This document shows positions 13,650-29,535 of a stretch of 64,000 nucleotides of DNA, piece by piece; position 1 is the stretch's first letter, and each line of letters begins with the position of its first letter. The translations under genes and the position numbers were made by a program. The notes beneath the pieces were generated by a model. It had not been told where the DNA came from. It worked only from the letters and a program-made list of their open reading frames with translations, and ran no database searches. The stretch lies in assembly GCF_002160895.1 (NCBI RefSeq), contig NZ_NFLL01000009.1:1-64000 (forward strand). The letters run 5' to 3'. Source of the stretch: Faecalibacterium sp. An122. GTDB taxonomy: Bacteria; Bacillota; Clostridia; Oscillospirales; Ruminococcaceae.

Positions 13650-14702
13650 TCAGCCGGATTTTTTGGGGCGGGCGCGGGTCCAGCGCCGCTGGATGAAGAA
13701 AAAGCCCACACAGCTCACCACAAAGGGGAGATAATAGGTGGCGGCCCGGTAGACCACCAGGGCGGACATGGCGGCGCTTTCCCCAAGAAAGCCGGTGAAA
13801 ATCAGATAGAAGGCCGTCTCGATGGAGCCCATGCCGCCCACGTTGGGCAGGGCGTTGGACAGCAGCATCATCAGGGCTGCCAGGGTCTGGACCTGTCCGA
13901 AGGTGAGGGGAGCCAGACCCATGAACCGGATGCTGAACCAGGGGATGGTGTACATCAGGGCCAGCTTGCACACCTGCAGAGCAAAGACCTGCAGGCAGAG
14001 GAACCGGTTCTGGAGCAGACGGCGGCTCTCGGTGCACAGGCCGTCCAGCTGGGCGGTCCAGCTCTGACGCCGGGCCTGCCACTTGTCGGTCCGGGGCAGC
14101 AGACCCAGCAGGCAGTAGGCCAGCTTCTGGATGGTGCGGCTGGTGCAGACCAGCACCAGCGCCAGAATGATGACGGCCACCACCAGACAGGCGGGCAGCA
14201 GATAGCGCATCAGCCCGGCCGAATCGGCGTCCAGCAGCCAGCGGCCATAGAACAACAGCAGCACCGCCGCATACAGCAGGACGGCTCCCTTGTGAAAGAC
14301 ATACTCCAACGTCATCAGGCCGATGCCGGGGCCCACGTCCAGGCCGTTCAGGCTGATGTCATAGCCCTGCATGGGCATGGTGCCCGCGCCGAAGGTCACC
14401 ACATTGCCGAAAGCTCCCAGAAAGGACAAATCCAGACCCCGGAGGAAAGGATAGTCGGGCACCCGGCTGGAAAGAACCCGCTGGTTGATGATTCCCTCCA
14501 TGAGGGGATAGGTGAGGCCCAGCAGAAGCAAAAGGGCAGTCTGGCCGACGGTCAGACTGTGAAGGGCGGCAGAGATCTCGGACAGATGGTCCTTGAAGAT
14601 GTAAAACATCAGGCCGGTCAGGGCTACAAGGGTCAAAACCGAGAGCAGGCCCCGCCGAAGAGAGAGTTTGTTGTCGGGCTGGGCGGGATGAGGGGATGAC
14701 AT
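13650..14702 (-). CDS. Flippase-like / lysylphosphatidylglycerol synthase-type membrane protein
   Basis: A 350-residue polytopic protein with about eight membrane helices. It resembles the UPF0104 (YbhN / MprF N-terminal flippase) family, seen in GAFGNVVTFGAGTMPMQGYDISLNGLDVGPGI, LEYVFHKGAVLLYA and LSNALPNVGGMGSIETAFYLIFTGFLG. It lacks the cytosolic aminoacyl-transferase domain of full MprF, so it is more likely a lipid or polyprenyl-linked glycan translocator. The start MSSPHPAQ at 14702 has AAAGGAG ten bases upstream; the earlier ATG overlaps that site. It has its own terminator. Glycosyltransferase genes upstream suggest a role in surface glycan or lipid traffic, which is inference. Confidence 0.8.
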   Translation of the reverse strand: MSSPHPAQPDNKLSLRRGLLSVLTLVALTGLMFYIFKDHLSEISAALHSLTVGQTALLLLLGLTYPLMEGIINQRVLSSRVPDYPFLRGLDLSFLGAFGNVVTFGAGTMPMQGYDISLNGLDVGPGIGLMTLEYVFHKGAVLLYAAVLLLFYGRWLLDADSAGLMRYLLPACLVVAVIILALVLVCTSRTIQKLAYCLLGLLPRTDKWQARRQSWTAQLDGLCTESRRLLQNRFLCLQVFALQVCKLALMYTIPWFSIRFMGLAPLTFGQVQTLAALMMLLSNALPNVGGMGSIETAFYLIFTGFLGESAAMSALVVYRAATYYLPFVVSCVGFFFIQRRWTRARPKKSG

Positions 14703-14837
14703 AGAGGACAGACTCCTTTCCAAAATGGGACATCCGGACGGGATGAATACAGGATAAGTATACCACGCATGGTCGGGAAAGTTTATAAACAGAATGGAAT
14801 TTTTGTGGAAAAAGGCCGCCCCGGCGCGAAGAAAGCA

Positions 14838-14921: not shown

Positions 14922-16535
14922 TTACAGATCGGCGGGATGGCTCTGGGCCAAAAGGGTCTCCACCTGCTGCCGCAGGGTGTTGGCAAAGGCCTCCTTGGAA
15001 TAATACCGCTGGTAGAGGGCGCGGCAGGCGGGCGCCATCCGGGCCGGGAGGCCGGGGTTCTCGATCATCTTGGTCATGGCCTCGGCCAGCTCGGCGGGGC
15101 TGTCGTTGTGGTAGACGAAGCCGTCCACCCCCTCGGTGATGAGGCCGGCGGTGCCGGTATGTTCGGAGACAATGCCCGGCTTGCCGAAGATCAAACCCTC
15201 GGTCACAAAGGTGGGCATGGGGTCATCCCGGGAGCTGCACACGGTGCAGGCGCACTGATCCATCAGGGACTTGATCTCCCCGCGGGTGAGGCGGTTGACA
15301 TAGAAGACGTTGGAAGGATAGTCGGCCGCCAGCTGCTTGACGTCGGCCAGCAGCCGCTTGTCGGCCCCCTTGCCCACAAAGAGGAAGGCCGCTTTGGCCC
15401 GGGTTTCGCCGGGCAGCATCCGGATGGCCTGGACCAGCAGGTCCTGGCCTTTCCGGATCTCAAAGGCGCCCACGCTGACCAGCAGGGGCAGACCGCCCGC
15501 AAAGCTGATGTCGTAGTGCTCGAAGTCGTCCTGTGCGTAGTCGGGCAGGCCGTAGATCAGCTGGCCGATTTCAAAGTCGGGGCGGTGTTCGTGCATGGCG
15601 GCGGTGGCATGGCTGCCCACCGCGCAGACCCGAATGTTGGAGGACAGGGTCCGGGGAATCAGGTGGGACAGATACCCGTACCCCACAAAGGCGTCGTGCA
15701 GCCACCAGAGGATGGGCACCGGCGCGCCGTTCAGGGCGCGGATGGCCTTGACTTCCACAATGGTGTTGGCCACCACCAGGTCGGCGGAGGTGGCCAGCCC
15801 CCACAGCATGGGGGAGCTGACGCAGTCGGGGTGGGTGATGACGGTGGCGCCCGCCTCCACAAACAGGGGCAGGGAACCGCCGTCTCCGGGGCCCAGCACC
15901 ACCACTTCATAGCCCATCTGGCGGAGGACCGGCACCGCGCTCACCAGCACGATGGGGGCGCCGGTCATGTCCAGCACATGGCTCAGCAGCAGGGCCCGCT
16001 TGCCCTCGGCAGAAAAGAGGTCGGAGGCGTCGGGCTCCCGGCGGTAGCGCAGCAGGGCCTGGGGAATGTGGGCCGGCTTGTCCGCCAGGCGGAAGGCCAG
16101 CCGCAGCAAAGAGGCGGGATCGTCGGGGTCCCGGGCCTGGGCCCGGCAACGCAGCAGCAGATCCCGGGAGACCACGGCGCACTTGGCGCCGGAGGGCTGA
16201 TGGGCGGCGCGGTAGACCAGGGTGTCCCCTTCAAAGCCGAATACCGCATCACAGAAGGCCAGGTCAGCGCCGTCCTGCAGGGCGGCTGCAAAATAGGTCA
16301 GGGTGGTGCTCAGGCATTCCACATCTTCGGCCGCCAGCACCACGCCGTCCAGACCCTGGGGCAGGGCGTCCAGGCTCTGGATCAGCCGGAATTTCCGGTG
16401 GAGCTGCAGCTCCATGCTGCAGGTCAGCGCCGCACAGCGCCCCGGCGCATAGACCGCCAACCAGGTGCGCTGGGTGTCCTGGTAGGGCTGGTTTGCCAGC
16501 TGGAACTGCTGGAATTGACTGTAACTGGAAAACAT
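14922..16535 (-). CDS. Family 4 glycosyltransferase with degenerate GT2-like N-terminal part
   Basis: A 537-residue cytoplasmic protein. The C-terminal half (from about residue 185) is a GT-B, family 4 enzyme: VLRQMGYEVVVLGPGDGG, LWWLHDAFVGYG, then LVSVGAFEIRKGQDLLVQAI, LFVGKGAD and the nucleotide-sugar region DDPMPTFVTEGLIFGKPGIVSEHTG. The first 180 residues carry pieces typical of the end of family 2 enzymes (DLAFCDAVFGFEG, then HIPQALLRYRR) but no complete GT2 domain or DXD start, so it looks like a truncated or rearranged two-domain transferase. It follows the coiled-coil protein gene by 24 bases and likely acts in cell-surface polysaccharide assembly. Donor and acceptor are unknown. Confidence 0.8.
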   Translation of the reverse strand: MFSSYSQFQQFQLANQPYQDTQRTWLAVYAPGRCAALTCSMELQLHRKFRLIQSLDALPQGLDGVVLAAEDVECLSTTLTYFAAALQDGADLAFCDAVFGFEGDTLVYRAAHQPSGAKCAVVSRDLLLRCRAQARDPDDPASLLRLAFRLADKPAHIPQALLRYRREPDASDLFSAEGKRALLLSHVLDMTGAPIVLVSAVPVLRQMGYEVVVLGPGDGGSLPLFVEAGATVITHPDCVSSPMLWGLATSADLVVANTIVEVKAIRALNGAPVPILWWLHDAFVGYGYLSHLIPRTLSSNIRVCAVGSHATAAMHEHRPDFEIGQLIYGLPDYAQDDFEHYDISFAGGLPLLVSVGAFEIRKGQDLLVQAIRMLPGETRAKAAFLFVGKGADKRLLADVKQLAADYPSNVFYVNRLTRGEIKSLMDQCACTVCSSRDDPMPTFVTEGLIFGKPGIVSEHTGTAGLITEGVDGFVYHNDSPAELAEAMTKMIENPGLPARMAPACRALYQRYYSKEAFANTLRQQVETLLAQSHPADL

Positions 16536-16558: not shown

Positions 16559-17353
16559 TTATTTTTTGCGGCCCAGAAAGGCACGGAGCGGGGCGGTCAG
16601 TTTCCAGCAGGCGCTGGACAGCACCGCTTCATAGCTGACCCGGAAGTGTTCTTTTTCCGCGATGGCAGCCGCCAGCTGTTCTTCCAGATGGGCGGCCCGG
16701 CGCTCCTGGCCGGCCAGCTGTTCGCCGAAATTCTCAGCCAAGGCCCGCTGCTCGTCGGCCGCGGCTGCGGCCGCGGCGGCCCGGTCCTGGACCTGCTCAA
16801 TGCCCCGGCGCATGGCAAAAAAGACGGTGTCGTCGGCCCCCAGCTGAAGGGGGTAGTAGGTGTAGGACACCGAGAATTTGGTTCCGGCAGGCAGACGCTC
16901 CGGGCATTCCGCGTAAAACTGGGGGTCCACATTCAAAAACAGGGTTTTCTCCTCGTCGAGGGAGAGGGCGGTGACGGGGGCGGCATGAATCCGCTCGTCC
17001 GAAATCGTCATTCCGACCACATAGCAGGGCAGCTCGCCGGGGTCCAGACGGATGGCCTTGGCCTCCCGCGGCAACTCAAAGACCGCCGATACCGTGTGGT
17101 TGGCGGCGGAGTAGGCCGACACCGGCGCGGGAATGGTGTCTTGCTCCGAAAAGCCCAGGCCACAGTCGTAGTAAAGGGTCAGGCGGAACAGGGACATGTT
17201 GTCGTAGGACTCGTGCTTTTCCAGCTGGGCAAGCTGCTGCTCCAGCGCCAGGCACCGCTGTGCCAGCTTGGACACGCCTTGATCCGAGAGGGAGAGCTGT
17301 TCTTTCAGTTCAGCGATCTGCTCCTCCGGAGTCTGTTTGGTTGCAGGGGGCAT
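16559..17353 (-). CDS. Coiled-coil protein associated with glycosyltransferases
   Basis: A 264-residue protein with an N-terminal coiled coil (about 8-48), a beta-rich central domain (MSLFRLTLYYDCGLGFSEQD to SVSYTYYPLQLGADD, residues about 53-175), an Ala/Glu coiled coil (about 185-235) and the ending SSACWKLTAPLRAF. This last 'S..W.lt.PLR' element is a common linker after coiled coils in multidomain glycosyltransferases of rhamnan or O-antigen type. It has no catalytic domain of its own, so it probably partners the adjacent transferase, perhaps setting chain length. GAGGTGAAG precedes the ATG. Function is inferred from that linker and the context. Confidence 0.6.
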   Translation of the reverse strand: MPPATKQTPEEQIAELKEQLSLSDQGVSKLAQRCLALEQQLAQLEKHESYDNMSLFRLTLYYDCGLGFSEQDTIPAPVSAYSAANHTVSAVFELPREAKAIRLDPGELPCYVVGMTISDERIHAAPVTALSLDEEKTLFLNVDPQFYAECPERLPAGTKFSVSYTYYPLQLGADDTVFFAMRRGIEQVQDRAAAAAAAADEQRALAENFGEQLAGQERRAAHLEEQLAAAIAEKEHFRVSYEAVLSSACWKLTAPLRAFLGRKK

Positions 17354-17563: not shown

Positions 17564-18694
17564 TCAGTGGCGGGCCACATAGCGCTGGAAACGGGCCCGG
17601 CTGCGCTCCATCCGGGCCTTTTTGGTCCGGGGCGGGACGATCCGCTTGCGCAGCTCCAGCAGCACGCAGCTCAGGGCAATGAAACTACACCGGATGGCGT
17701 ACTGGGACAGCAGGCCCACAATGGGGCTGGAAGCAAACTGGGCGGCGTACAGATACCAGGGCACCGCGGTCAGCTCCACCGTGTGGAGACAGAAAATGTT
17801 CAGAGAACGGCGGCCCACCGCTTCCAGGAAGTGGGTCAGGAAGTTCTCGCTCCGTGCGCTGAGACGGACAAACAGGTTGACGATCCACAGGCCGATGATG
17901 CCGTTGATGAAGATGCCCACCGGGCCTAGGGTCCATTCACCCATGGACATGTTGTCGGTGGTGCCGGACACCAGGGCGCCTACGGCCGAGATCACCATGC
18001 ACACCATGGCGGAGGGGAACAGCCAGGTCAGACGGGGCTGGTCAAACCAGCGGCGCTTCTTTGCGATGTGGCCGATGTACAGGTAGGGGACCACAGCCAT
18101 GCCCTGGGACAGGCAGAAGGGCAGCTCCCATACCAGACAGGTACCCCAGCCCAGAATGGCGGTGACCGCCACGGCGCAGGGTATGTACCGCTCGGGGAAG
18201 GCGTTGAACAGGATATCCAGAATGATCCAGCCCACCGCCATGGTCAGCAGGTACCACATGGGCCCGCAGGAGAAGATGCTGAAACCGAAATAGGTGGAGG
18301 TGTGGGGCAGGCCCAGCAAAAAGCCCGCCAGCACCTTTTGGCTTTCCGAGATGGCCGCCGGCCAGGAGCCGAAACAGTAGTGGTGCAGGATCAAATGAAA
18401 GCCTGATGTGGCCAGCGCTGTATAAAGAAAGGGCGGCAGGATGCCCCGCAGCTGCTGCTGGACACATTTGCCCACCGACCTCTTGCGGAAGCCGAAGCCG
18501 CTGGCGATGTAGAAAGCCGACATCAGGGCTTCGCGGTAGATGAAGAGCAGAAAACTGGAAACCGACAGCCCGCTGCCCAGATTCAGCGAATACGCCTCCG
18601 CTGTGTGGACAAAGATGACGGTTGCCATGCCTATGCCTTTGAACAAGTCAAACATCCCGAGGGAGTTGACGGTGCGCGTTTTGGTTCCTTTCAT
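17564..18694 (-). CDS. Acyltransferase family 3 membrane protein
   Basis: A 376-residue integral membrane O-acyltransferase (OafA / AT3 type) with about ten helices. The N-terminus FDLFKGIGMATVIFVHTAEAY contains the family's conserved histidine after the first helix. The arginine-rich loop GFRKRSVGKCVQQQLRGILPPF fits the second AT3 motif. The C-terminus is strongly basic. The ATG at 18694 has GAGGAGG nine bases upstream; a TTG directly before it is ignored. It has a strong promoter at 18811-18839 and may acetylate or acylate a surface glycan made by the neighbouring transferase. It is also back-to-back with the acyl-ligase cluster, and a link to that pathway is possible but unproven. Confidence 0.82.
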   Translation of the reverse strand: MKGTKTRTVNSLGMFDLFKGIGMATVIFVHTAEAYSLNLGSGLSVSSFLLFIYREALMSAFYIASGFGFRKRSVGKCVQQQLRGILPPFLYTALATSGFHLILHHYCFGSWPAAISESQKVLAGFLLGLPHTSTYFGFSIFSCGPMWYLLTMAVGWIILDILFNAFPERYIPCAVAVTAILGWGTCLVWELPFCLSQGMAVVPYLYIGHIAKKRRWFDQPRLTWLFPSAMVCMVISAVGALVSGTTDNMSMGEWTLGPVGIFINGIIGLWIVNLFVRLSARSENFLTHFLEAVGRRSLNIFCLHTVELTAVPWYLYAAQFASSPIVGLLSQYAIRCSFIALSCVLLELRKRIVPPRTKKARMERSRARFQRYVARH

Positions 18695-18810
18695 CAAAGG
18701 GGTCCTCCTCGCAGAAATAAAATTCCTTCCAGCAGGCCCGGCGAAAAAAGGAAGGATTGGCAGGTTCTACACATCATACCCGGATTTTCAGACAAAGATT
18801 GTTCAAATCT

Positions 18811-19119: not shown

Positions 19120-19232
19120 TTGACACCAGGACGGGAACGTGGTATCCTTTCGGTATACCTGTATTACAAGTCGAGACCCGCTGCGGAGAATGTCGGATTC
19201 CGGTTGCAATGGGGTGGAGGATTCTATATAAT
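19120..19232 (+). promoter_or_regulatory. Tandem promoters of the acyl-ligase cluster
   Basis: P1 is TTGACA-N17-TATCCT at 19120-19148, with GGTATACC directly after it. P2 is TTGCAA-N17-TATAAT at 19204-19232. The first ATG is at 19293. P1 resembles the promoter at 13406 in both hexamers and spacing. Confidence 0.7.
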
Positions 19233-19292: not shown

Positions 19293-20753
19293 ATGATCTC
19301 GACAGTCTATCAGCTGGTCAACCATATGGAGGCCGACCAGGCCGAGAAAACGGCCATCCAGTATTACGACGAAGCGAAGGGCGGCGTGGTGAGCATCTGC
19401 TATGGGCAGTATGCCCAGGACATCCGCCGGGCAGCGGGCCTGCTGCTCCACCGCAAACCCGACATCAAGGGACAGAAAGTCTGCCTGCTGGCCCGCAACG
19501 GCTACGATTATCTGGTCAATCTTCTTTCGGTTCTGCTGGCCGGCGGGGTGCTGGTGCCCCTGAACCTCCAGAAAAACTGGGACGAGATCCAGTATGAGAT
19601 CGACCTGGTGGAGCCGGCGTACATCCTGCACGACGGGGAGTTTGCCGAGCGGGAACCTGCTCTGACCGCCACCTACGGCGACAAGCTGCTGCCCATGGAC
19701 GGCTACAAGACCTCCCGGTGGAGCGAGCGGTGCAGCGAGTGCGAGGACGTGGACGCTTTGTCGGTGATTCTGTTCACCTCGGGCACCACCGGCCGCAGCA
19801 AGGGCGTCATGATCAGCCACCGGAACCTCTTTGCCCCCATGGACTTCTTCTGCCTGCCCTTTGAGGACATCCAGAAGCAGACCGGCTGGGACACCAGCAA
19901 GTTCCGCTCCTTCTCGGTCCTGCCCATGTTCCATGTGGCGGCCCTCACCAGTTCCATCTCCTGGGCCATCATGGGCAACACCGTCAACCTGTGCAACGAC
20001 CTGAAACACTTCTACCGCGACCTGGCCGCCATGGACAGCGAGGTGATGGCGGTGGTGCCGGTCCTGCTGCAGAGCATCTATCGGGATGTGAAGCGGGGCC
20101 GCCGGGACCGTCTGGGCAGCCTGAAGGCTCTGACCTGCGGCGCTGCCTCCATGGACGCCGAGACCATGTCCGACCTGGTAAAGGCGGGCTTCTTTATCTG
20201 CCAGATGTACGGCCTCACCGAGACAGTGGGCGACGGCACCTGGAACAACTCCCAGGACCCCGCCGACATCCATTCGGTGGGCCTGTGCGACCCCAAGCGG
20301 GAGTACAAGCTGGAGGACGGCGAACTGTGCATCCGGGGCGACTCGGTCATGATGGGCTACTATAAGGACCCCGAGGGCACCGCCGAGGTGCTGGACGCCG
20401 ACGGCTGGCTCCACACCGGCGACCTGGCCCGCATCGATGAGCGGGGCTTTGTATTCCTCACCGGCCGCAAGAAAAACGTCATCATCCTGGGCAGCGGCGA
20501 AAACGTCAGCCCCGAGGAGCTGGAAGCTCTGCTGAACCAGTGCGAGGCCGTCACCGAGAGCCTGGTCCGGGAAGAAAACGGGAAGATCGGCGCTCTGGTC
20601 TACTGCGGCGAAGGCGGCCAGACCAAAGAGGCCGACGTCCAGGCCTACGTCACCGAGATGAACCGCACCCTGCCCCTGTACAAGCGGATTTCGGCGGTGC
20701 ACTTCTCGGCAGAACCCCTGCCCCGGAACACCGCAGGCAAGCTGCTGCGCTGA
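19293..20753 (+). CDS. AMP-dependent acyl-CoA synthetase / acyl-ACP ligase (copy 1)
   Basis: A 486-residue ANL-superfamily adenylating enzyme that activates a carboxylic acid as acyl-AMP for transfer to CoA or a carrier protein. The P-loop is LFTSGTTGRSKGVMISH near residue 165. The A5 region is QMYGLTETVGDG, the A7 region is GWLHTGDLARIDERGF, and GRKKNVIILGSGENVSPEELE is A8. The catalytic Lys of motif A10 is expected in LPRNTAGKLLR at the C-terminus. GGAGGAGAGAC precedes the ATG. It leads a plus-strand operon of a second ligase, a carrier protein and a condensation-type acyltransferase. Its last 125 codons are almost identical to those of copy 2, while the N-terminal parts differ widely, so the two probably select different acids. 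Confidence 0.9.
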   Translation: MISTVYQLVNHMEADQAEKTAIQYYDEAKGGVVSICYGQYAQDIRRAAGLLLHRKPDIKGQKVCLLARNGYDYLVNLLSVLLAGGVLVPLNLQKNWDEIQYEIDLVEPAYILHDGEFAEREPALTATYGDKLLPMDGYKTSRWSERCSECEDVDALSVILFTSGTTGRSKGVMISHRNLFAPMDFFCLPFEDIQKQTGWDTSKFRSFSVLPMFHVAALTSSISWAIMGNTVNLCNDLKHFYRDLAAMDSEVMAVVPVLLQSIYRDVKRGRRDRLGSLKALTCGAASMDAETMSDLVKAGFFICQMYGLTETVGDGTWNNSQDPADIHSVGLCDPKREYKLEDGELCIRGDSVMMGYYKDPEGTAEVLDADGWLHTGDLARIDERGFVFLTGRKKNVIILGSGENVSPEELEALLNQCEAVTESLVREENGKIGALVYCGEGGQTKEADVQAYVTEMNRTLPLYKRISAVHFSAEPLPRNTAGKLLR

Positions 20754-20780
20754 GCCGCCGAACCAGAAGAGGGAACAGCC

Positions 20781-22268
20781 ATGGGATTTGAAGGACATCT
20801 GGTAGATACCGTCTACCGCCTGATCACCGAGAATATGGAGGACATCTACGCTGACCGTCCGGGCCTGCGCTACCGCGGGGCCGACGGGAAGATTGTGACG
20901 GTGACCTTTGGGGACTATGCCAAGGACATCCGCCGCTGCGTGGGCTATCTCAACGAAAAACTGGGCGGCGCCCAGCGCCGCAAGGTCTGCATTCTGGGCC
21001 AGAACAGCTACTGGTATGCGGTGGCCATTCTGGGCCTGCTGGCGGCGGACAGCATCCAGATTCCCCTCAACCAGCACAAGCGCTGGGAGGAGCTGAGCTA
21101 CGAACTGGATCTGGTGAAGCCGGATGTGATCCTCTGGGATGGGGACAATTACCCCTGGCGGGATCAGCTGCTGAAGGAATGGGGGGACCGGCTGCTGCCT
21201 CTGGAGGAGTGCACCCGGGCCGACCCGGCGGAACTCCATGAGACCGCCAACCCCTACGCCCTCTCGATGATTATGTTTACCTCGGGCACCACCGGCCGCA
21301 GCAAGGGCGTCATGCTGAACCAATGGTCCATCATGATTACCGGCCGCGACAGCATCTGCAGCTGGCGGGCGGCGGTGGCCCGGGCCAAGGAGATGGGCTA
21401 TACCGAGGAGACCTTCCGCCTGAGCCATTTTTCCACCCTGCCGCTGTTCCATATCGCGGCCTATGCCAACCTGCTCCACTGGCCCCTGTACGGCGCCGCC
21501 ACCAACCTGGGCGACGCCCGGAGTTTCTACCGGGATCTGGCGGATATGCCCAGTGAGTCCGTGGCGGTGGTGCCCTCCATTGCCGAAATGCTTCACCGGG
21601 ACATCCTGCGGGACCGCCGGGATAAAATCGGCCCGCTCTGGATTCTGATGTGCAGCTCGGCATCCTTCTCCCGGGAAACCCTGCTGGACCTGAGCCGCCG
21701 CGGCATCCTCATTATTCAGAATTACGGCATGACCGAGACCGGCAGCGGCGGTCTGGTCAATGAAGCCCAGGACGAAAAGCACATTGCCGCCGGCCACACC
21801 ATCCCCTGCATGGAGTACAAGCTGGAAAACGGCGAGCTGTGCCTGAAGGGCGAATGCCTGATGCTGGGCTATTACCAGAACCCCGAAGGCACCGCCGAGG
21901 TGCTGGACGCCGACGGCTGGCTCCACACCGGCGACCTGGCCCGCATCGATGAGCGGGGCTTTGTGCTCCTCACCGGCCGCAAGAAAAACGTCATCATCCT
22001 GGGCAGCGGCGAAAACGTCAGCCCCGAGGAGCTGGAAGCTCTGCTGAACCAGTGCGAGGCCGTCACCGAGAGTCTGGTCCGGGAAGAAAACGGGAAGATC
22101 GGCGCTCTGGTCTACTGCGGCGAAGGCGGCCAGACCAAGGAGGCCGATGTCCAGGCCTACGTCACCGAGATGAACCGCACCCTGCCCCTGTACAAGCGGA
22201 TTTCGTCGGTCCACTTCTCGGCAGAACCCCTGCCCCGGAACGCCGCAGGCAAGCTGCAGCGCACCTGA
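20781..22268 (+). CDS. AMP-dependent acyl-CoA synthetase / acyl-ACP ligase (copy 2)
   Basis: A 495-residue paralogue of the preceding ligase with the same motif order: MFTSGTTGRSKGVML near residue 165, QNYGMTETGSGG, GWLHTGDLARIDERGF and AGKLQRT at the end. The N-terminal substrate-binding domain shares only the motifs with copy 1, whereas from GTAEVLDADGWLH onward the proteins are nearly identical. At DNA level about 378 bases differ at only about ten sites, with an abrupt edge, which points to recent gene conversion. GAGGGAACAG precedes the ATG, 27 bases after copy 1. Two ligases beside one carrier protein suggest that either two acids feed one product or one ligase loads the carrier while the other activates an acceptor. 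Confidence 0.9.
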   Translation: MGFEGHLVDTVYRLITENMEDIYADRPGLRYRGADGKIVTVTFGDYAKDIRRCVGYLNEKLGGAQRRKVCILGQNSYWYAVAILGLLAADSIQIPLNQHKRWEELSYELDLVKPDVILWDGDNYPWRDQLLKEWGDRLLPLEECTRADPAELHETANPYALSMIMFTSGTTGRSKGVMLNQWSIMITGRDSICSWRAAVARAKEMGYTEETFRLSHFSTLPLFHIAAYANLLHWPLYGAATNLGDARSFYRDLADMPSESVAVVPSIAEMLHRDILRDRRDKIGPLWILMCSSASFSRETLLDLSRRGILIIQNYGMTETGSGGLVNEAQDEKHIAAGHTIPCMEYKLENGELCLKGECLMLGYYQNPEGTAEVLDADGWLHTGDLARIDERGFVLLTGRKKNVIILGSGENVSPEELEALLNQCEAVTESLVREENGKIGALVYCGEGGQTKEADVQAYVTEMNRTLPLYKRISSVHFSAEPLPRNAAGKLQRT

Positions 22269-22357
22269 AATGCATACTGTCCAGGCCTGGATGAAATACT
22301 ATCAGGGCCTGCCGTTTGGAATCAATCAAAGGAAAACATGGAAAGGAAGTTATCACT

Positions 22358-22600
22358 ATGAACCGTACCGAAATTATGGCACAGATTGTGGGTATCCTGG
22401 AGGATGTGGCCGAGATCAGCCCCGATGAGGTGAACGAGGACAGCGTCCTGATGGACGACCTGGACCTCTCCTCGATGGAGATTCTGACCATCGTGGCCGA
22501 CCTGGAGGAGACCTTCGGCATCCGCATCCCCGAGAAGGAGCTGCGCAGCTTTGTCACCATCAACGACCTGATTGACTATCTGAGCACACGGGTGGGCTGA
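22358..22600 (+). CDS. Acyl carrier protein
   Basis: An 80-residue acidic helical carrier protein. The phosphopantetheine site lies in DDLDLSSMEILTIVADLEE, with S39 (in SSM) the likely attachment serine; helix II reading ADLEETFGIRIPEKEL is typical. The usual DSL is SSM here, nearer to dedicated secondary-pathway carriers than to the fatty-acid-synthase ACP. GAAAGGAAG precedes the ATG at 22358. It sits between the two ligases and the condensation-type enzyme, only three bases before the latter, so it is the probable carrier for the activated acyl group. Confidence 0.92.
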   Translation: MNRTEIMAQIVGILEDVAEISPDEVNEDSVLMDDLDLSSMEILTIVADLEETFGIRIPEKELRSFVTINDLIDYLSTRVG

Positions 22601-22603
22601 TTT

Positions 22604-23842
22604 ATGACGGAAACCATCACCCGCGTATCCCAGTATCTCCTGCAGGGAGCCATGTACTTTTACCGCCCCAAGACCATCTACTGCCGGTATCAGTACGCCC
22701 TGCGGGATGCCGTGGACCCTGTGCTGCTTCAGGAAGCGGTGGACGCCGCCCTGGAACAGGCGGACTACTTCAAGATGAAGCTGGTCCGGGACAAACGGGA
22801 GGTTCGGCTGGAAGAAAACGAACAGCCCTTTACCATCTGCCCCGGCAATGAGCTGCGGGCCATGCCCGAGGAGACCGGCGGCTATCTGTTCAACGTCTCC
22901 TATGAAGGGGACACCATCTTTTTTGACTGGTATCACTTTGTGGCGGACGGCCACGGGGTGACCCGGTTTCTGACCCGCATCCTGATGGAGTACTGCAACC
23001 GACGCTATCAGACCGGCTTTGCATGCCCGCCTCTGGGTTCGGCTCCGGCCTACGATATGCAGGCCCTGCTGGCCTATGACCCCACCTCGGGGGAGGAGGG
23101 AATGCCCGAGATCGAGCCGGTGCCGGTTCAGGAGAGCCAGCTGCGCCGGACCATGATCCGGCTGGACAAGCAGAGCCTGGTGGATGCCGCCCTGAACTGC
23201 GGCGTCAAGCCGGTCAGCGCCCTGCTGGGTCTGCTCAGCCTCTCCATCCAGCCCTTTGTGGAGCGGGAAAAGGTGGAGTACTGCTATTCCACCGATACCC
23301 GCCGCACTCTGGGTGTGCCCGAGGCCTTCTATAACTGTGTGGCCTCCTTCCGCCATGGAGTGGACGCCGGCCCGGAGGTGCGGCTGGCGGACATCGCCGC
23401 CGACATCGACGCCAACCTGCGCGCCAGCCTCCAGCCTGAGGCCCAGCTGACCCAGATGGCCAAGATGATGGGCTGGGTCTGCCGGGTGGACGCCCTCAAG
23501 GCGCCCCTGCGGATCAAGCAGCGGGTGTTCCGCATGGGCGAGACCATGGGCAACTTCCCGGCGGATTTCTGGATCAGCTATCTGGGAGACCCGCTGGGCC
23601 CCGACCGGGATTATCCCCCCGCCCTCAACGACTATATCCGGGATTTTGAAGTCTGGGTTCCCCCCGACGGCGCGTCGGTGGGCTTTGAGATCGCCAGCCT
23701 TCACGGGCAGCTGATTTGCTGCATCCAGGATAAGCTGGGCCGCGCCGGCCTGACCGACGCCATCCGCGCCGTCATGGAGCGGGAAGGGGTCAAGGTCATC
23801 GGCACCGCCGACATCGGCCCCGCGCTGCCCTATCAGGAATAA
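22604..23842 (+). CDS. Stand-alone condensation-domain-type acyltransferase
   Basis: A 412-residue protein of the condensation / CoA-dependent acyltransferase superfamily. The active-site motif HHxxxDG appears as YHFVADGHG, with H111, D115 and G116 present and the first histidine replaced by tyrosine; that first residue is the less essential one. A second half with ASFRHGVD and WISYLGDP fits the two-lobed fold. Length is that of a free-standing C domain or a PapA-like ester/amide synthase. The N-terminus (RVSQYLLQGAMYFYRP) is typical of uncharacterised Clostridia members. With the carrier protein directly upstream it most likely transfers the acyl group to an amine or alcohol. Product unknown. 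A terminator follows within 20 bases. Confidence 0.78.
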   Translation: MTETITRVSQYLLQGAMYFYRPKTIYCRYQYALRDAVDPVLLQEAVDAALEQADYFKMKLVRDKREVRLEENEQPFTICPGNELRAMPEETGGYLFNVSYEGDTIFFDWYHFVADGHGVTRFLTRILMEYCNRRYQTGFACPPLGSAPAYDMQALLAYDPTSGEEGMPEIEPVPVQESQLRRTMIRLDKQSLVDAALNCGVKPVSALLGLLSLSIQPFVEREKVEYCYSTDTRRTLGVPEAFYNCVASFRHGVDAGPEVRLADIAADIDANLRASLQPEAQLTQMAKMMGWVCRVDALKAPLRIKQRVFRMGETMGNFPADFWISYLGDPLGPDRDYPPALNDYIRDFEVWVPPDGASVGFEIASLHGQLICCIQDKLGRAGLTDAIRAVMEREGVKVIGTADIGPALPYQE

Positions 23843-23860
23843 GCATACATACCAACACCA

Positions 23861-23893
23861 AAGCCCCGAAGGCGTCCTGCCCTCGGGGTTTTT
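23861..23893 (+). terminator. Terminator of the acyl-ligase cluster
   Basis: AAAGCCCCGA and TCGGGGTTTTT form a short GC stem with a T-run, 19 bases past the condensation-type gene. Confidence 0.85.
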
Positions 23894-24122: not shown

Positions 24123-24656
24123 ATGACAGCACAGGAATTTACATCCATGGTAAAAACCTATCAGGGGCTTGTGTATACCGTGTGCTTCCAGCTGGTCCAG
24201 GATGCAGATACAGCCCAGGACCTGGCGCAGGACACCTTCCTCGCCGCCTGGCGCGCCATAGACCGGTGCCCGGCAGGCTACGAAAAACAATGGCTGGCCC
24301 GTATCGCTGCAAACAAAGCGAAAGACCACCTGCGCAGCGGCTGGGTGCGGAAGATGAGCACCCCCGGCGACGAAGTGATGGCACTGGCGGGCGCACCACC
24401 CGACCAGGGCCCCGAGGCGAAAGCCCTGGCCGGCGTAGGCATGGACGAACTGGAGCGAAAGATTTTGAATCTGCGGGAGCCCTATAAAACCCCCTGCCGG
24501 CTGTGTTTGCTGGAGGGATATACTCCGGCCGAGGCGGCCAGGATCTGCCGCCGGCCGGAAGCAACGCTGAGCGCCCAGCTTTGGCGGGCGAAAAAAATCC
24601 TGCGGCAAGAGATCGAACAGGAAAGGAGGACCGAGGATGGAACTATTTCGAGATGA
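24123..24656 (+). CDS. ECF-type RNA polymerase sigma factor
   Basis: A 177-residue group IV sigma factor. Region 2 spans about residues 8-75 (YQGLVYTVCFQLVQDADTAQDLAQDTFLAAWR, including the conserved DAxDxxQDTF-like helix). Region 4 lies at about 110-165 with a helix-turn-helix reading GYTPAEAARICRRPEATLSAQLWRAKK. AAAGGAGG is 16 bases from the ATG, longer than usual. The next gene overlaps it by 20 bases and encodes an anti-sigma factor. Two membrane-protein genes follow and are likely part of the regulon or the signal path. The trigger is not evident. Confidence 0.9.
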   Translation: MTAQEFTSMVKTYQGLVYTVCFQLVQDADTAQDLAQDTFLAAWRAIDRCPAGYEKQWLARIAANKAKDHLRSGWVRKMSTPGDEVMALAGAPPDQGPEAKALAGVGMDELERKILNLREPYKTPCRLCLLEGYTPAEAARICRRPEATLSAQLWRAKKILRQEIEQERRTEDGTISR

Positions 24657-25152
24657 TGGATGTCTGACCGACGAGGGGCTGCAGGCCCTGCTGGACGGGA
24701 CGCTGGATGAACTGGGACGGCTGGAAGCCGCCGAACACCTGTCCTTTTGCGACCGGTGCCTGGACCGCTATACGGCGCTGCTGACCGGCAGCGCGCTGGA
24801 ACAGCCGGCGCGGGATTTGTCCCGGCCGGTGGGCCGCACCATCCTGATCCGCCTGATGCAAAACGTCTATGGCCGCATGGTGGTGGCCGGCGTGGCGGCG
24901 GTGCTGGCGCTGACCCTCTGGCGGGGCGGCAGCCTGGGGCTGATTCTGGCCCGGAACGCTTCCTCGCTGGAAGCCTATGTGCCGGAGCAGATTGATCCCC
25001 CGGCAGCGTCTAAGCTGCCCCCCAAGAGCAATTACACCGAGCCGCCCCGGCCGGAAGAGAAAACCTCTGTGGCTCGCAGAGCCCATGAAGCGGTCAGCAG
25101 CCTTTGGGATGCCCTGACCGGCGCCGCCGATGAGGCGAACACTACCAACTGA
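24637..25152 (+). CDS. Zinc-type anti-sigma factor, membrane-anchored
   Basis: A 171-residue protein. Its N-terminal domain carries H34-x3-C38-x2-C41 in AAEHLSFCDRCLDRY, the zinc-binding motif of ZAS anti-sigma factors that clamp ECF sigma factors. One membrane helix covers about residues 80-97, followed by an extracytoplasmic Pro-rich segment (PPAASKLPPKSNYTEPPRPEEK) and a short C-terminal helix. The 20-base overlap with the sigma gene ensures coupled synthesis. Signalling would come from the outer segment, by proteolysis or conformational change; which one cannot be told. Confidence 0.85.
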   Translation: MELFRDDGCLTDEGLQALLDGTLDELGRLEAAEHLSFCDRCLDRYTALLTGSALEQPARDLSRPVGRTILIRLMQNVYGRMVVAGVAAVLALTLWRGGSLGLILARNASSLEAYVPEQIDPPAASKLPPKSNYTEPPRPEEKTSVARRAHEAVSSLWDALTGAADEANTTN

Positions 25153-25166
25153 TGGGAGAGATAACG

Positions 25167-25772
25167 ATGAAAAAGAACGGTTTCTTTACCTTCTGCTTTG
25201 CCTTTGTCCCGGGCGCAGGGCAGATGTACCAGGGTTACATGAAACGGGGCCTGTCCCTGATCGGGATTTGCTGCGTGGCCGTGATTATCGGTTCGCTGTT
25301 TCAGCCGCTGGTGGCGGCGGCCATGTGCATCTGCTGCGTGGCGTGGATGTACAGCTTTTTCGACACCTTCAATCTCCGGGCCATGCTCAGCGCCAATATG
25401 CCCCCCGAGGATGACTATCTGATCCACCTGGGCCACGATGTGACCCTGGATCAGCTGCTGCATCGCCGGCACAAGCTGTTTGGCTGGTGCCTGGTGGCGG
25501 TGGGCGTCTACACCCTCTACGATGAGCTGGTGATGGACTTCCTGCGGGAACTGTACTGGAACACCAACAGCAGCTGGATCATTCGTGTGATCTACAACAT
25601 TATGAATGAGGTCCCCACCGTGGTGATCTGCCTGGCCGTGATTGCCCTGGGCATCTGGCTGGTGCGCGGTCCCCGGAACAAGCCGTCTCAGGCCGACCCC
25701 TTCGATCAGCTGGAGGAGTTCTGCGAGTATGGCGTCAAGGAGGAGGAAAGCCATGACGGAGAAGAAAACTGA
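25167..25772 (+). CDS. Multipass membrane protein, TM2-like start
   Basis: A 201-residue membrane protein. The N-terminal FFTFCFAFVPGAGQMYQGYMKRGLSLIGI is the 'GaGqmY.G...G' pattern found in TM2-domain and related small membrane proteins. About four helices are visible (roughly 8-24, 28-55, 100-115 and 150-170), with a charged C-terminus. GGGAGAG lies six bases before the ATG at 25167. The gene follows the anti-sigma gene by 14 bases and overlaps the next gene by 20, so all four are one operon. Its role is unknown; a sensor or effector of the ECF system is plausible. Confidence 0.7.
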   Translation: MKKNGFFTFCFAFVPGAGQMYQGYMKRGLSLIGICCVAVIIGSLFQPLVAAAMCICCVAWMYSFFDTFNLRAMLSANMPPEDDYLIHLGHDVTLDQLLHRRHKLFGWCLVAVGVYTLYDELVMDFLRELYWNTNSSWIIRVIYNIMNEVPTVVICLAVIALGIWLVRGPRNKPSQADPFDQLEEFCEYGVKEEESHDGEEN

Positions 25773-26709
25773 GGCTGCCCCCGGCACCGCCGGGCCGGCT
25801 CCCAATACCCCGCCCAGGGCTTCCGCCCCTGGGCCCCAGGACGGCCGCAGCATCCGCCGGGTGGGCAGCGTCACCCTGGGCCTGTGCCTGATTGCTGTGG
25901 GCATCTGCTTTTTGTGCTATTACTTCCTGCCGGTGTTCAACTGGCTGCTGGTGGTCAAAATCGGCGCGCCGGTGGCCCTCATCGCCCTGGGCGCCGAGGT
26001 GCTGTGGTGTGCCTCCCATCCCGGCCGGTGGAAATACGACTTCCTGGCGGTGCTGGGCTGCCTGGTGCTGATGGGCGGCGCCTTCTGTCTGACTCTGCTG
26101 CCCCTGTTCTGGCAGACGGCCAACCCCACCAAGCGCATCCAGCTGGACGATCTGGGGGAGGCATACGAGAGCAGCCTCTACCAGGCCCTGGAGGATCAGG
26201 TGGAGCTGAACGGGGTGGAAGCCTATCTGGAAACCCGTTTCGGGGTAGATGCGCCCCGGACTCTGGAGGAGATCGGCGGCGCCGGGGTGCGGTTCTGGCT
26301 GGATATCGACCTCTATGGACCCTATGAGGGCACCGAGGCCTTTGCCGCCGACTGTGCCCGTGTGATGGAGGCCGTCCGGGCCCAGGGCGTGCTGCCCGAC
26401 CGGGTGAATATCGAGTGGGTGAGCCCCGACCGTCAGTCCAGCCTGGAACTGAACCTGGACACCCCCGCCAAGATGGCCTGGTCCACCGACCAGATGGCCC
26501 AGCGGACCGAGGTATGGGCCGCGGAGGCCTACCCGGCCACCGACGACCAGAATCTGGACCAGGAGAACAGCCCAGACTCTGCCGCCAGCACCGCCCCGGC
26601 GGACCGCGTCTCTGCATCGGACAACACCGTGCAGCCCTCGGACCAGGCGGTCCCGGCAGGGGAAAACACCCGTTACCCCGACGAGGCGATGGTGGAAGCG
26701 GTCTCCTGA
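25753..26709 (+). CDS. Membrane protein of unknown function in the ECF operon
   Basis: A 318-residue protein with a Pro/Ala-rich cytoplasmic start, three predicted helices (about 38-55, 62-82 and 97-115), a soluble alpha/beta domain (about 120-240) containing GVRFWLDIDLYGPYEG, and an acidic Ser/Thr/Asn-rich tail. The first two helices resemble the small DUF5668-like pair often found with ECF or PspC systems (SVTLGLCLIAVGICFL, KIGAPVALIALGAEVLW). AGGAGGAAAG precedes the ATG. It ends the operon and a strong terminator follows. No function is claimed. Confidence 0.65.
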   Translation: MTEKKTEAAPGTAGPAPNTPPRASAPGPQDGRSIRRVGSVTLGLCLIAVGICFLCYYFLPVFNWLLVVKIGAPVALIALGAEVLWCASHPGRWKYDFLAVLGCLVLMGGAFCLTLLPLFWQTANPTKRIQLDDLGEAYESSLYQALEDQVELNGVEAYLETRFGVDAPRTLEEIGGAGVRFWLDIDLYGPYEGTEAFAADCARVMEAVRAQGVLPDRVNIEWVSPDRQSSLELNLDTPAKMAWSTDQMAQRTEVWAAEAYPATDDQNLDQENSPDSAASTAPADRVSASDNTVQPSDQAVPAGENTRYPDEAMVEAVS

Positions 26710-26824: not shown

Positions 26825-27973
26825 TTAGTTCTTTTCGGCGATCATTTCGGTGTAGGCCAGGATCAGGGGGCCCACGCCCTTGGCGTCGTTGCAGACCACC
26901 GGCTCACTGTAGTAGTAGGCCAGGCTGCCGTCCCGGTGCTGGGCGCCGCCCAGACCGGCCACCAGGCAGATGCCGTCCAGCTGGAGGCTGCCGTCCGGGT
27001 TCTTGGACAGGTACTTGTCGCAGGTGCCGTAGAAGGCTTTCTCGGCCCAGGCGGTCATCCGCTTGGGCAGCAGGCCCAGCCGGACGCCTTTGAGGACCGC
27101 GTAGGCAAACAGGGCGGTGCCGCTGGTTTCCAGATAGTTGCCCTCCTCGCCGCCGTGGTCGATCACCTGCCAGAACATGCCGGTCTCCTCGTCCTGGTAC
27201 TTGTGGATGTCCTCGATGGTCTGCTTGAGCATGGCCTGGATGCCGCGGTACTCGTTGTAGAGCTGCTCATCCATCCGCTCCAGCACGTCCACCATGGCCA
27301 CCATGAACCAGCCCATGGCCCGCAGCCAGAAGTTGGGGCTGCAGCCGGTCACCGGGTTGGCCCAGTACATCTGGCGGCTCTCGTCGTAGCCGTGGTAGTA
27401 CAGGCCGGTCTTGGGGTCCCGCATGTACTTCTGAATGTTCATGAACTGATGGTAGCTGTCGATGCAGCCGCTCATCTTGTTGAAGCGGGTCTCATACTCC
27501 ATGTAGAAGGGCTGGGCCATGTAGGCGCCGTCCAGCCACACCTGCCAGGGGTAGATGTTCTTGTGCCAGAAGTTCCCCTCCTTGGTGCGGGGCTGGGTCT
27601 GCAGCTGGCTGTCGATGACGTCGATGGCCTTGCGGTACTTCTCCTCGCCGAAGATGTCGTAGAGGATGAACAGGTTTTTGCCCTGATTCACGTTGTCCAG
27701 GTTGTACTCCTTGGGGTCATAGGTGAGGATGGAGCCGTCGGGCTGGACGAACCAGTCGATGAACTCCTTGGAGAAGTCCAGATACTTTTTGTCCCCGGTG
27801 GTGTTGTACAGGCTCAGGCAGGCGGTAATCATGCAGCCGTCGATGTAGTTCCACTTGTTGGGCTGGCCGCTGCGGACCTTCTCAATGTTCCACATGGGGG
27901 CTTCGGCGCTGGAGTTGGCGATGAGATAGTCAACGTACTCCCCCAGCATGGTCAGAATTTCCTGGTGCGTCAT
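26825..27973 (-). CDS. Unsaturated rhamnogalacturonyl hydrolase (GH88/GH105 family)
   Basis: A 382-residue cytoplasmic (alpha/alpha)6-barrel glycoside hydrolase that removes the unsaturated uronic acid from lyase-generated pectin oligosaccharides. The likely catalytic Asp is in PWQVWLDGAYMAQPFYMEYE near residue 145, equivalent to the Asp of YteR. CSPNFWLRAMGWFMVAMVDVLERM is the conserved aromatic substrate face. No signal peptide, so the substrate must be imported. It starts five bases after the GH28 stop, with GAGGAGG inside the end of that gene, so both are cotranscribed. The ABC importer at 30.5-33.9 kb is the obvious supplier. Confidence 0.93.
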   Translation of the reverse strand: MTHQEILTMLGEYVDYLIANSSAEAPMWNIEKVRSGQPNKWNYIDGCMITACLSLYNTTGDKKYLDFSKEFIDWFVQPDGSILTYDPKEYNLDNVNQGKNLFILYDIFGEEKYRKAIDVIDSQLQTQPRTKEGNFWHKNIYPWQVWLDGAYMAQPFYMEYETRFNKMSGCIDSYHQFMNIQKYMRDPKTGLYYHGYDESRQMYWANPVTGCSPNFWLRAMGWFMVAMVDVLERMDEQLYNEYRGIQAMLKQTIEDIHKYQDEETGMFWQVIDHGGEEGNYLETSGTALFAYAVLKGVRLGLLPKRMTAWAEKAFYGTCDKYLSKNPDGSLQLDGICLVAGLGGAQHRDGSLAYYYSEPVVCNDAKGVGPLILAYTEMIAEKN

Positions 27974-27978
27974 GGTTG

Positions 27979-29535
27979 TCAGTCCTCCTCAAAGCTGCCT
28001 ACATTGGCAAACTGGAGCCGCTCGCCCTCGTATCCTTCGATCTGGACGTTGTGCAGCTCGATCTTCTCCACGTTCTCGGCGTAAATGGCCAGTTTCTTGA
28101 CAAGGGGCCGGTTGTCCGCCATGGCGGCCTGGCCGGCTTCGGCGTTGGGATCAAAGGTGATCTTCACGTCCTTCATGATGACTTCCCCGATGGGCATTTC
28201 AGGCAGGCCGTCAAAGTAGCAGCCGGCGTACTGGGCGTCGGTGGCCACAATGTTCTCCATGGTCAGGCTGCCCAGCCGCGGGGTGTAGTCGTCCACCTTC
28301 ATGGCCTGGCGGCACTGGACGTAATCGCTGTGGCCGTCGGGGTCACAGAAGTAGAACATGTTGATGACAAAGGGAGCCTTGACGCCCTTCATCTCCACAT
28401 TGCGGAACACCAGCCCGTCGATGACGGCGGTTTTGCCGCGGCCCCGGCGGGTCTTGACCCGCAGGCCCCGGTCGGTGTGGTCCATCAGGCACTGGGTCAC
28501 CACCATATCCTTGACGCCGCCCGACATCTCGCTGCCGATGACAATGCCGCCGTGGCCCTTGTCCAGCAGGCAGTTGCGGATGACGGTCTGTTTGCAGCTC
28601 TTCTGGAGCTTCATTCCCAGAAAGACCTTGCTGGCCTTCATGGCGATGCAGTCGTCGCCCACATGGATGTCCACGCCGATGATCCGGGTGTTGACGCAGC
28701 TCTCGGGATCGATGCCGTCGGTGTTGGGGGCGTCATAGGGATTGCGGATCTTGAAGTCCAGCAGATCCAGGCCGGTGGAGAACATGGGGTGGATGGTCCA
28801 GGAGTAGCTGTTCTTCACCGTCACGCCGTGGAGCACCACGTACTTGCTGTCGGTGATGGAGACCACCCGGGGACGCCAGGCGATCTTTTTCTTTTTGGCG
28901 TCCTGCCACCAGTCGCCGTTCTGGGCGTCGGCGTCCAGCTCACCCTGGCCGGTGATGGTGACGTCCTCCGCCTGGGTGACGTTGATGAGGCTGGCCATGC
29001 TGTCCAGGGGGTTGCCCTCCCAGCCGGTCAGATAGTATTCGTCCACCTCGTTCTCACTGGGCAGCACACCCGGCAGAATGGGGTAGTGGGTGCGGTCGTT
29101 GTCGCCCAGAATCACAGCGCCCTTTTCCAGATAGAGGGTGGTATGGCTCTTGAGGAACAGGCTGGCGCAGCGGTAGCGGCCCGCCGGCAGATAGACGGTG
29201 CCCCCGGCCGGGCAGGTGGACAGGGCGGCCTGCAGTTTGGCGGTGTCGTCGGTGACGCCGTCGCCCGCCAGGCCGTACCGGGACGCATCCACAAAGAAGG
29301 TCTCGGCCCGGGTGTCAAAGTCCAGGGTCAGTTCCTCGCCGCTGGCCCGGACGGTGAGGGTGTAATGATGGCCGGGCAGAAGGGAGTAGACCGAGAACAC
29401 GTTGGTGTTGCAGGCATCGTAGACCTCCTGACCGTCCAGCAGAACGGCGAAGGGCTCGGCCGGACGGAAGCACAGGCCGTTCTCCAGCTCAAAGACGGCG
29501 CTGCGGGTCATGGAACGAATCAATGTCAGTTTCAT
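27979..29535 (-). CDS. Polygalacturonase-like glycoside hydrolase family 28
   Basis: A 518-residue right-handed beta-helix enzyme. All four GH28 signatures are present: NTDG at 271-274, GDD at 293-295, GHG at 327-329 and RVK at 359-361, providing the catalytic Asp residues and the substrate His and Lys. The N-terminal 80 residues are a beta domain seen in exo-acting bacterial members, and DASRYGLAGDGVTDDTAKLQAAL opens the helix as in pectate-lyase-like proteins. No signal peptide is seen, so it acts on imported galacturonides or rhamnogalacturonides, most likely in exo fashion. First gene of the two-gene catabolic operon, divergent from the AraC regulator. Confidence 0.94.
   Translation of the reverse strand: MKLTLIRSMTRSAVFELENGLCFRPAEPFAVLLDGQEVYDACNTNVFSVYSLLPGHHYTLTVRASGEELTLDFDTRAETFFVDASRYGLAGDGVTDDTAKLQAALSTCPAGGTVYLPAGRYRCASLFLKSHTTLYLEKGAVILGDNDRTHYPILPGVLPSENEVDEYYLTGWEGNPLDSMASLINVTQAEDVTITGQGELDADAQNGDWWQDAKKKKIAWRPRVVSITDSKYVVLHGVTVKNSYSWTIHPMFSTGLDLLDFKIRNPYDAPNTDGIDPESCVNTRIIGVDIHVGDDCIAMKASKVFLGMKLQKSCKQTVIRNCLLDKGHGGIVIGSEMSGGVKDMVVTQCLMDHTDRGLRVKTRRGRGKTAVIDGLVFRNVEMKGVKAPFVINMFYFCDPDGHSDYVQCRQAMKVDDYTPRLGSLTMENIVATDAQYAGCYFDGLPEMPIGEVIMKDVKITFDPNAEAGQAAMADNRPLVKKLAIYAENVEKIELHNVQIEGYEGERLQFANVGSFEED

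Follow-up and report, generated by a model that had tools for sequence, protein, structure and literature searches.

A ligase-carrier-acyltransferase operon next to a glycan-type gene block in Faecalibacterium, and a regulator-ligase fusion that may control it

Introduction

A stretch of 64,000 nucleotides from Faecalibacterium sp. An122 (contig NZ_NFLL01000009.1, positions 1 to 64,000; hereafter the window) carries on one strand a compact operon of four genes, encoding two ANL ligases, an acyl carrier protein and a free-standing condensation-type enzyme (C enzyme). As a whole, this system is best, if tentatively, explained as an acid-conjugating pathway tied to a neighboring block of surface-glycan or glycolipid genes and subjected, in one clade, to the control of a fusion between a transcriptional regulator and a ligase. 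The ligase-carrier-transferase core taken by itself is very probable. The reading draws upon gene content, co-occurrence of the block, exchange of subdomains between ligases, the fusion, its altered P-loop and the placement of a palindrome, and from these we infer every catalytic step, the substrates, the acceptor and the binding of DNA. Faecalibacterium ranks among the most common bacteria of the human gut, and the product predicted from the block is an acyl conjugate or an acylated glycan that has yet to be described. No account of this block, and none of a GntR-FCD-ligase fusion or of an ANL-fold sensor of that architecture, was found in searches of open-licence PMC papers.

Composition of the ligase-carrier-acyltransferase core

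An earlier reading of the window, made from the sequence only, had described two ANL ligases, an 80-residue carrier protein with SSM and a condensation-type enzyme with YHFVADG on one strand, and Pfam searches together with a fold model confirmed all four genes (Table 1). Both ligases combine PF00501 with the P-loop TSGTTG and the C-terminal catalytic lysine, motifs typical of ANL enzymes. Their pocket motif LPMFH, of the type found in acyl and aryl ligases, points to something other than an amino acid as the substrate, probably an acid devoid of an alpha-amino group; the best solved relatives are feruloyl-, malonyl- and fatty-acyl-CoA synthetases. The DLDLSSME stretch of the carrier is identical in the sequences of 19 relatives, and one phosphopantetheinyl transferase (PF01648) is encoded in the same genome.

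The C enzyme has no convincing Pfam match, the single sub-threshold one being to an unrelated model, and membership in the condensation family PF00668 was rejected because the protein does not match that Pfam model at E 0.01. The structure predicted for it by AlphaFold (mean pLDDT 86, pTM 0.87) matches PapA5 and condensation domains of nonribosomal peptide synthetases (NRPSs) over the full length (Foldseek E 1e-17, TM about 0.6), with PapA5 (1q9j) as the best-scoring solved fold at 18-19% identity in the structural alignment; no OaaC protein is named among the PDB matches listed. The two-lobed CAT-like fold of this predicted model, together with HxxxDG, places the protein in the condensation/CoA-dependent acyltransferase superfamily. 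PapA5 is an alcohol acyltransferase, and PapA-type enzymes acylate lipids and sugars. In the 26 C enzymes of the genus, His111, Asp115, Gly116 and Gly118 are invariant. Set against the motif (D/H)HxxxD(S/A/G) of fatty acid amide (FAA) C domains, the same 26 proteins retain the second His and the Asp without exception, have Y, F, H or D (mostly Y/F) at the first position and G at the last position in 26/26, a minority state (17%) among FAA C domains according to the available part of a preprint (PMC13142362).

Number of ligases and exchange of their C-terminal subdomain

Identity between the two window ligases is 41% at the residue level before position 365 of ligase 1 and rises past this point to 93% of residues and 96% of bases, a contrast that the sequence-only reading had not noted. 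Phylogenetic trees were built from 44 rows, comprising 39 full locus ligases and five dispersed ones, with two fragments of locus L037 and two of the seven dispersed loci tried (those that yielded no row from the search pattern) left out. Ligase 2 clusters with its orthologues of four other genomes in the substrate-domain tree and with ligase 1 in the C-terminal tree (support 99/93); the approximately unbiased (AU) test rejected both the grouping of ligase 2 with its orthologues for the C-terminal region (p 0.0003) and the grouping of the two window ligases for the substrate domain (p 8e-52). In another pair the substrate-domain tree joins L041_1 and L042_1 as sisters (support 96), and their common origin from residue 399 onward is rejected (AU p 3e-8); L041_1 reads like the front of L042_1 joined to the rear of L042_2, as expected of a deletion between repeats. 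Two exchanges of the C-terminal subdomain within the genus, one giving rise to window ligase 2 and the other affecting L041_1/L042_1, are therefore statistically supported.

The C-terminal subdomain is the part of ANL enzymes that meets the carrier. The same is stated for NRPSs in the available part of a survey (PMC8097286), and its exchange would therefore preserve docking while the acid pocket differs. A second ligase, which had seemed unusual for so small a set, turned out to be common: two ligases are present in 15 of the 26 loci with a C enzyme, one in nine, fragments in L037 and none in L044, and at least six changes of the two-ligase state are required on the GT4 tree (25 rows). The acid menu may vary between species along with the ligase cassettes.

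Association of the operon with the divergent gene block

Facing the operon are genes for an AT3 membrane acyltransferase, a coiled-coil protein, a GT4 glycosyltransferase and an LPG-synthase-like membrane protein. Across the 31 genus genomes, ligase, AT3 and GT4 have a single distribution: 27 genomes carry all three, counting the fusion described below as the ligase of G024, and the other four (G018, G019, G020 and G026, with completeness of 79, 93, 99 and 89%, respectively) carry none, which strengthens the proposal of the sequence-only reading that AT3 is a partner of the operon. The C enzyme is encoded in 26 genomes, all among the 27 block-bearing ones, and its carriers by name are Faecalibacterium relatives including F. 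prausnitzii, F. longum and F. gallinarum. Rather than being dispersed in relatives, the genes stay together: in 24 of the 26 loci with a C enzyme, one or two full ligases adjoin carrier and C enzyme with AT3 in divergent orientation, one of the remaining loci having a fragmentary ligase and the other none. Within the fetched stretches, several of which end at a contig edge, the cluster is faced by AT3 and the coiled-coil gene in 26/26 loci, by GT4 in 25 and by the LPG-synthase-like gene in 19; in L045 the latter lies on the other side of the cluster. The carrier is the most conserved member, its lowest identity to the window protein being 75% (26 rows, window included), and the corresponding minima of the other members are 59% (GT4), 49% (LPG-synthase-like protein), 48% (AT3), 42% (C enzyme) and 37% (coiled-coil protein). 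L121 (G008) keeps ligase, carrier, AT3 and GT4 with the C enzyme shrunk to a doubtful 31-residue match, and L044 (G024) has carrier and C enzyme and no locus ligase, the sole ligase found in G024 being the fusion, cut by the contig end.

Relatives of the C enzyme extend beyond the genus. At E 1e-3 they occur in 106 of 396 family genomes, five of which belong to Faecalibacterium, and at E 1e-9 in 31 of 391 class genomes, a count that includes An122. No ligase or carrier similar to those of the window at E 1e-4 adjoins them in 29 of the 31 class places, all outside the genome of An122, and 25 family places with flanks of up to 1.5 kb, which reveal an adjoining ligase only in part, nor in 20 family places (mostly the same ones) inspected up to about 8 kb, the weaker family places being outside the sample. 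Ligase homologues at E 1e-60 were detected in 3 of 390 other class genomes and are at most 38% identical.

The sequence-only reading had pointed to stand-alone sets of this kind in gut Clostridia as sources of fatty-acyl amides, and a real precedent exists in the Oaa-type clusters, with OaaA, OaaACP and OaaC of Coprococcus eutactus, in so far as the available part of the preprint describes them (PMC13142362). It is possible, albeit doubtful, that the Faecalibacterium operon is an Oaa-like small-molecule pathway, where fatty or other acids are loaded onto the carrier by the ligases and passed by the C enzyme to a free small amine or alcohol, to leave as a diffusible signal, AT3, GT4 and the rest being only stable neighbors. 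The same three free-standing kinds of protein, as known from the available preprint text (PMC13142362), and the retention of the motif His and Asp in 26/26 C enzymes are consistent with this, but the presence of AT3 and GT4 tracks that of the ligase across the 31 genus genomes, the C-enzyme motif ends in the DG that is in the minority among FAA C domains, and C relatives outside the genus have no recognizable adjoining ligase or carrier in the loci examined. The frame of a disassembled ligase-carrier-condensation system proved right, whereas fatty-acyl amide as its product is not supported as originally put, because the motif ends DG, the best fold is PapA5 and the neighbors are of glycan type.

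Regulator-ligase fusion and its candidate operator

Beyond the window's pair, the genome of strain An122 encodes two further ligases of the family. One of them (C2; L131:7166-9283) is a protein of 705 aa in which a GntR winged helix and an FCD domain precede the ligase in a single frame (PF00392 E 5e-23, PF07729 E 5e-23 and PF00501 E 2e-46). Fusions of 705-711 aa were read in 11 genomes and partly in G024, where the contig ends; in G010 a ligase frame is truncated by the contig start with its front portion unreadable. Assignment to the GntR/FCD family is by Pfam (PF00392 and PF07729) for the An122 protein and by alignment for the other ten. In its substrate domain the An122 fusion is closer to ligase 1 (54% identity) than to ligase 2 (41%), and the stretch TETVGDGxWN is common to it and ligase 1. 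A membrane-type protein of 173-180 aa precedes the fusion in 10/12 fetched fusion loci (173 aa and an operon-like row in An122) and has no Pfam match in the three cases scanned. Six loci have a solo ligase beside the fusion within the same fetched stretch, and G010 has one too. In An122 the solo ligase (C67; L130:7983-9446) has a substrate domain with 58% identity to that of ligase 1. Among 390 other class genomes, with two candidates per genome scored, no frame with GntR and ligase matched both halves at E 1e-35.

The P-loop reads FTSD in all 12 fusions available (11 plus G024) versus FTSG in 39/39 full locus ligases, and the TTG following the Asp is changed to TAG, SAG or TSG in five of the 12, so the ligase part is judged from these residues to be probably inactive. 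An unlikely alternative is a fusion acting as an active enzyme with the acyl-adenylate as co-regulator, in the manner of BirA, instead of a dead sensor; the terminal GK lysine and most of the aligned ANL motifs are indeed retained, but the replacement of the P-loop Gly by Asp without exception and the further changes in TTG argue against it. To our knowledge, no ANL-fold sensor with GntR/FCD-pseudoligase architecture has been described.

Twelve loci (the window, L027-L035, L037 and L046) each contain exactly one copy of the palindrome CCTGTAWTACAGG at up to one mismatch, in every case upstream of the ligase, and no other copy exists in the 487 kb examined (window plus 26 genus loci). In the window the copy follows the -10 hexamer of promoter 1 at a distance of nine bases, a position that looks repressor-like. 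The palindrome is absent at the cluster loci of the 14 genomes without a detected fusion, and it is present upstream of the membrane-protein-fusion operon in 10/12 fusion loci (up to one mismatch), as well as, in exact form, upstream of the An122 solo ligase. An exact copy also precedes the locus ligase of G010 (L037:2081-3060), which is split, by damage or assembly, into a front of about 140 and a rear of about 155 residues. Association of fusion and palindrome gives Fisher p 7e-7 if the cut frame of G010 is counted as a fusion. Four exact CTGTAWTACAG sites are present in the An122 genome, two of them at the fusion operon and the solo ligase; with up to one mismatch there are 37 sites versus 26 for the reversed control, so that the short pattern alone is weak. 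Control of the palindrome by the fusion seems fairly probable. Whether a dead copy of the pathway's ligase joined to a GntR/FCD repressor forms a one-component sensor, in which a pocket of ligase-1 type binds the acid or its adenylate and switches the conjugation and fusion operons via CCTGTAWTACAGG, is evenly poised.

Proposed pathway

In the acid-conjugating pathway favored here, the ligases would adenylate carboxylic acids and load them onto Ser39 of the carrier. Two ligases with different acid pockets may serve the one carrier because their C-terminal subdomains are of one kind. The carrier-bound acyl group would then be transferred by the C enzyme, most likely to the hydroxyl or amine of a sugar or lipid that GT4 helps to make, and AT3 and the LPG-synthase-like protein would act on the product at the membrane. 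In the fusion-bearing clade, the GntR/FCD-ligase may read the acid and control the ligase operon and its own operon through CCTGTAWTACAGG, with external acid expected to lift its repression. A sugar or lipid acceptor from the glycan block is a tentative choice, favored because AT3 and GT4 are gained or lost with the ligase and because of the known activity of PapA-type enzymes; an Oaa-like transfer to a free small amine comes close to it in likelihood.

Several points weigh against this pathway. The glycan link is one of gene neighborhood only. The folds matched by the C enzyme also include epimerization and heterocyclization domains beside condensation domains and PapA5, and so do not point to one kind of acceptor. 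Some conserved ANL motifs survive in the fusion, so that its inactivity is deduced. Fusion and palindrome are restricted to one clade that includes the window genome, i.e., one change on the GT4 tree (25 rows), and the Fisher p value overstates their association because it is close to a single evolutionary event. G024 carries the fusion and neither palindrome nor ligase at its locus, and the palindrome was not found at the fusion locus of G005 or on the cut contig of G010 (L182, cut; L186). The two other CTGTAWTACAG sites, at C24 and C56, are not tied to the pathway and have one or two mismatches to the 13-mer. As to the ligases, a third exchange was considered for L036_1, which looks converted by its neighbor beginning near residue 399, with 45/45 bases identical in two consecutive blocks, and was found suggestive and not significant (AU p 0.06 from residue 399 and 0.58 for the whole region).

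It is improbable that the acyl group passes from the carrier to AT3, directly or via the C enzyme, for O-acylation of an exported polysaccharide in functional parallel to Dlt D-alanylation. Carrier, ligase and membrane acyltransferase do share one block and G008 retains all three despite the loss of the C enzyme, but the C enzyme is otherwise retained (26/27 block-bearing genomes), AT3 enzymes use acyl-CoA as donor, and neither MBOAT nor DltD families are among the block proteins scanned. A Dlt-like system as such was rejected, with no MBOAT DltB or DltD among the scanned neighbors (AT3, GT4, PF03706, sigma, anti-sigma and no-match proteins).

Features of the window

Coordinates are collected in Table 1. 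The expected promoters before the operon and terminator after it were located, as consensus matches only, in the form of two sigma-70-like sites 5′ of ligase 1 and a hairpin 3′ of the last gene; over the scanned stretch, six promoter-like sites were counted versus 1.5 in shuffles and 11 terminator-like sites versus 4.7, again by consensus only.

Table 1. Features of the four-gene operon and of the divergent block in the window.
Feature	Position	Strand	Basis
Ligase 1, ANL, 486 aa, type-1 substrate domain	19293..20753	+	PF00501 E 4e-51; intact P-loop FTSGTTG and terminal GK lysine; orthologues in trees
Ligase 2, ANL, 495 aa, type-2 substrate domain; C-terminal subdomain derived from ligase 1	20781..22268	+	PF00501 E 4e-39; trees
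Acyl carrier protein, 80 aa, DLDLSSME, Ser39	22358..22600	+	PF00550 E 3e-11
Stand-alone condensation/PapA-fold acyltransferase (C enzyme), 412 aa, WYHFVADG	22604..23842	+	Predicted fold, motif
Promoter-like site 1, TTGACA-17-TATCCT	19120..19148	+	Consensus match only
Promoter-like site 2, TTGCAA-17-TATAAT	19204..19232	+	Consensus match only
Operator-like palindrome CCTGTATTACAAG, one mismatch to CCTGTAWTACAGG	19158..19170	+	Pattern match
Terminator-like hairpin 3′ of operon	23874..23889	+	Consensus match; overlaps longer hairpin 23888-23864 on -
C-terminal repeat, copy 1 by repeat finder	20300..20599	+	93% over 300 nt; high similarity continues to about 20750
C-terminal repeat, copy 2 by repeat finder	21812..22111	+	93% over 300 nt; high similarity continues to about 22262
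AT3 membrane acyltransferase (PF01757), divergent	17564..18697	-	Pfam
Coiled coil - beta sandwich - coiled coil protein, conserved in block	16559..17353	-	No Pfam match; no fold match at E 0.001
GT4 glycosyltransferase (PF16994/PF00534)	14922..16535	-	Pfam
LPG_synthase_TM membrane protein (PF03706)	13650..14723	-	Pfam

On the 3′ side of the operon (24123-26709) follow an extracytoplasmic function (ECF) sigma factor, a zinc-finger anti-sigma-like protein and another two proteins that match no Pfam family, and the sigma/anti-sigma pair is also downstream of the cluster in many fetched relatives. Further on (26825-29535), two genes resembling pectin- or rhamnogalacturonan-degrading hydrolases, as read by eye, stand beside an AraC-like regulator, and a frame of 1501 aa (43327-47832) has a start that resembles, by eye only, CoA-dehydratase activase.

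Comparison with known systems

The closest known system is represented by the Oaa-type clusters, and by analogy the Faecalibacterium set would work like them. In both, a free-standing ligase, carrier and condensation protein are encoded together in a gut Clostridium with no multidomain NRPS. In contrast to the Oaa clusters, the Faecalibacterium set has one or two ligases with an exchanged C-terminal subdomain and a 412-aa C enzyme whose motif ends in DG; its neighbors (AT3, GT4, coiled-coil and LPG-synthase-like genes) are fixed, and one clade adds the regulator-ligase fusion and the palindrome. With PapA5 and NRPS condensation domains the C enzyme shares the predicted fold over its full length and HxxxDG, the differences being the low structural-alignment identity to PapA5 and the lack of a PF00668 match at the threshold given above.

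The regulator-pseudoligase is the part furthest from known systems. BirA is a group II biotin ligase and repressor, and like it the fusion links a DNA-binding domain with a ligase that belongs to the adenylate-forming enzymes and is related to the pathway under control; unlike BirA, it combines GntR/FCD with an ANL ligase, its P-loop is altered, and its regulatory role is deduced. The fusion makes the substrate of the pathway testable, since the acid that frees it from the palindrome is expected to be that of the pathway.

The A domains of NRPSs are adenylating enzymes that likewise recombine between their core and C-terminal subdomain, the latter (Asub) being largely spared by recombination according to the available part of the survey (PMC8097286). 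Here, unlike in NRPSs, an Asub-type subdomain is swapped between stand-alone ligases beside one carrier gene, and these ligases thus provide a natural example of C-terminal subdomain exchange among adenylating enzymes.

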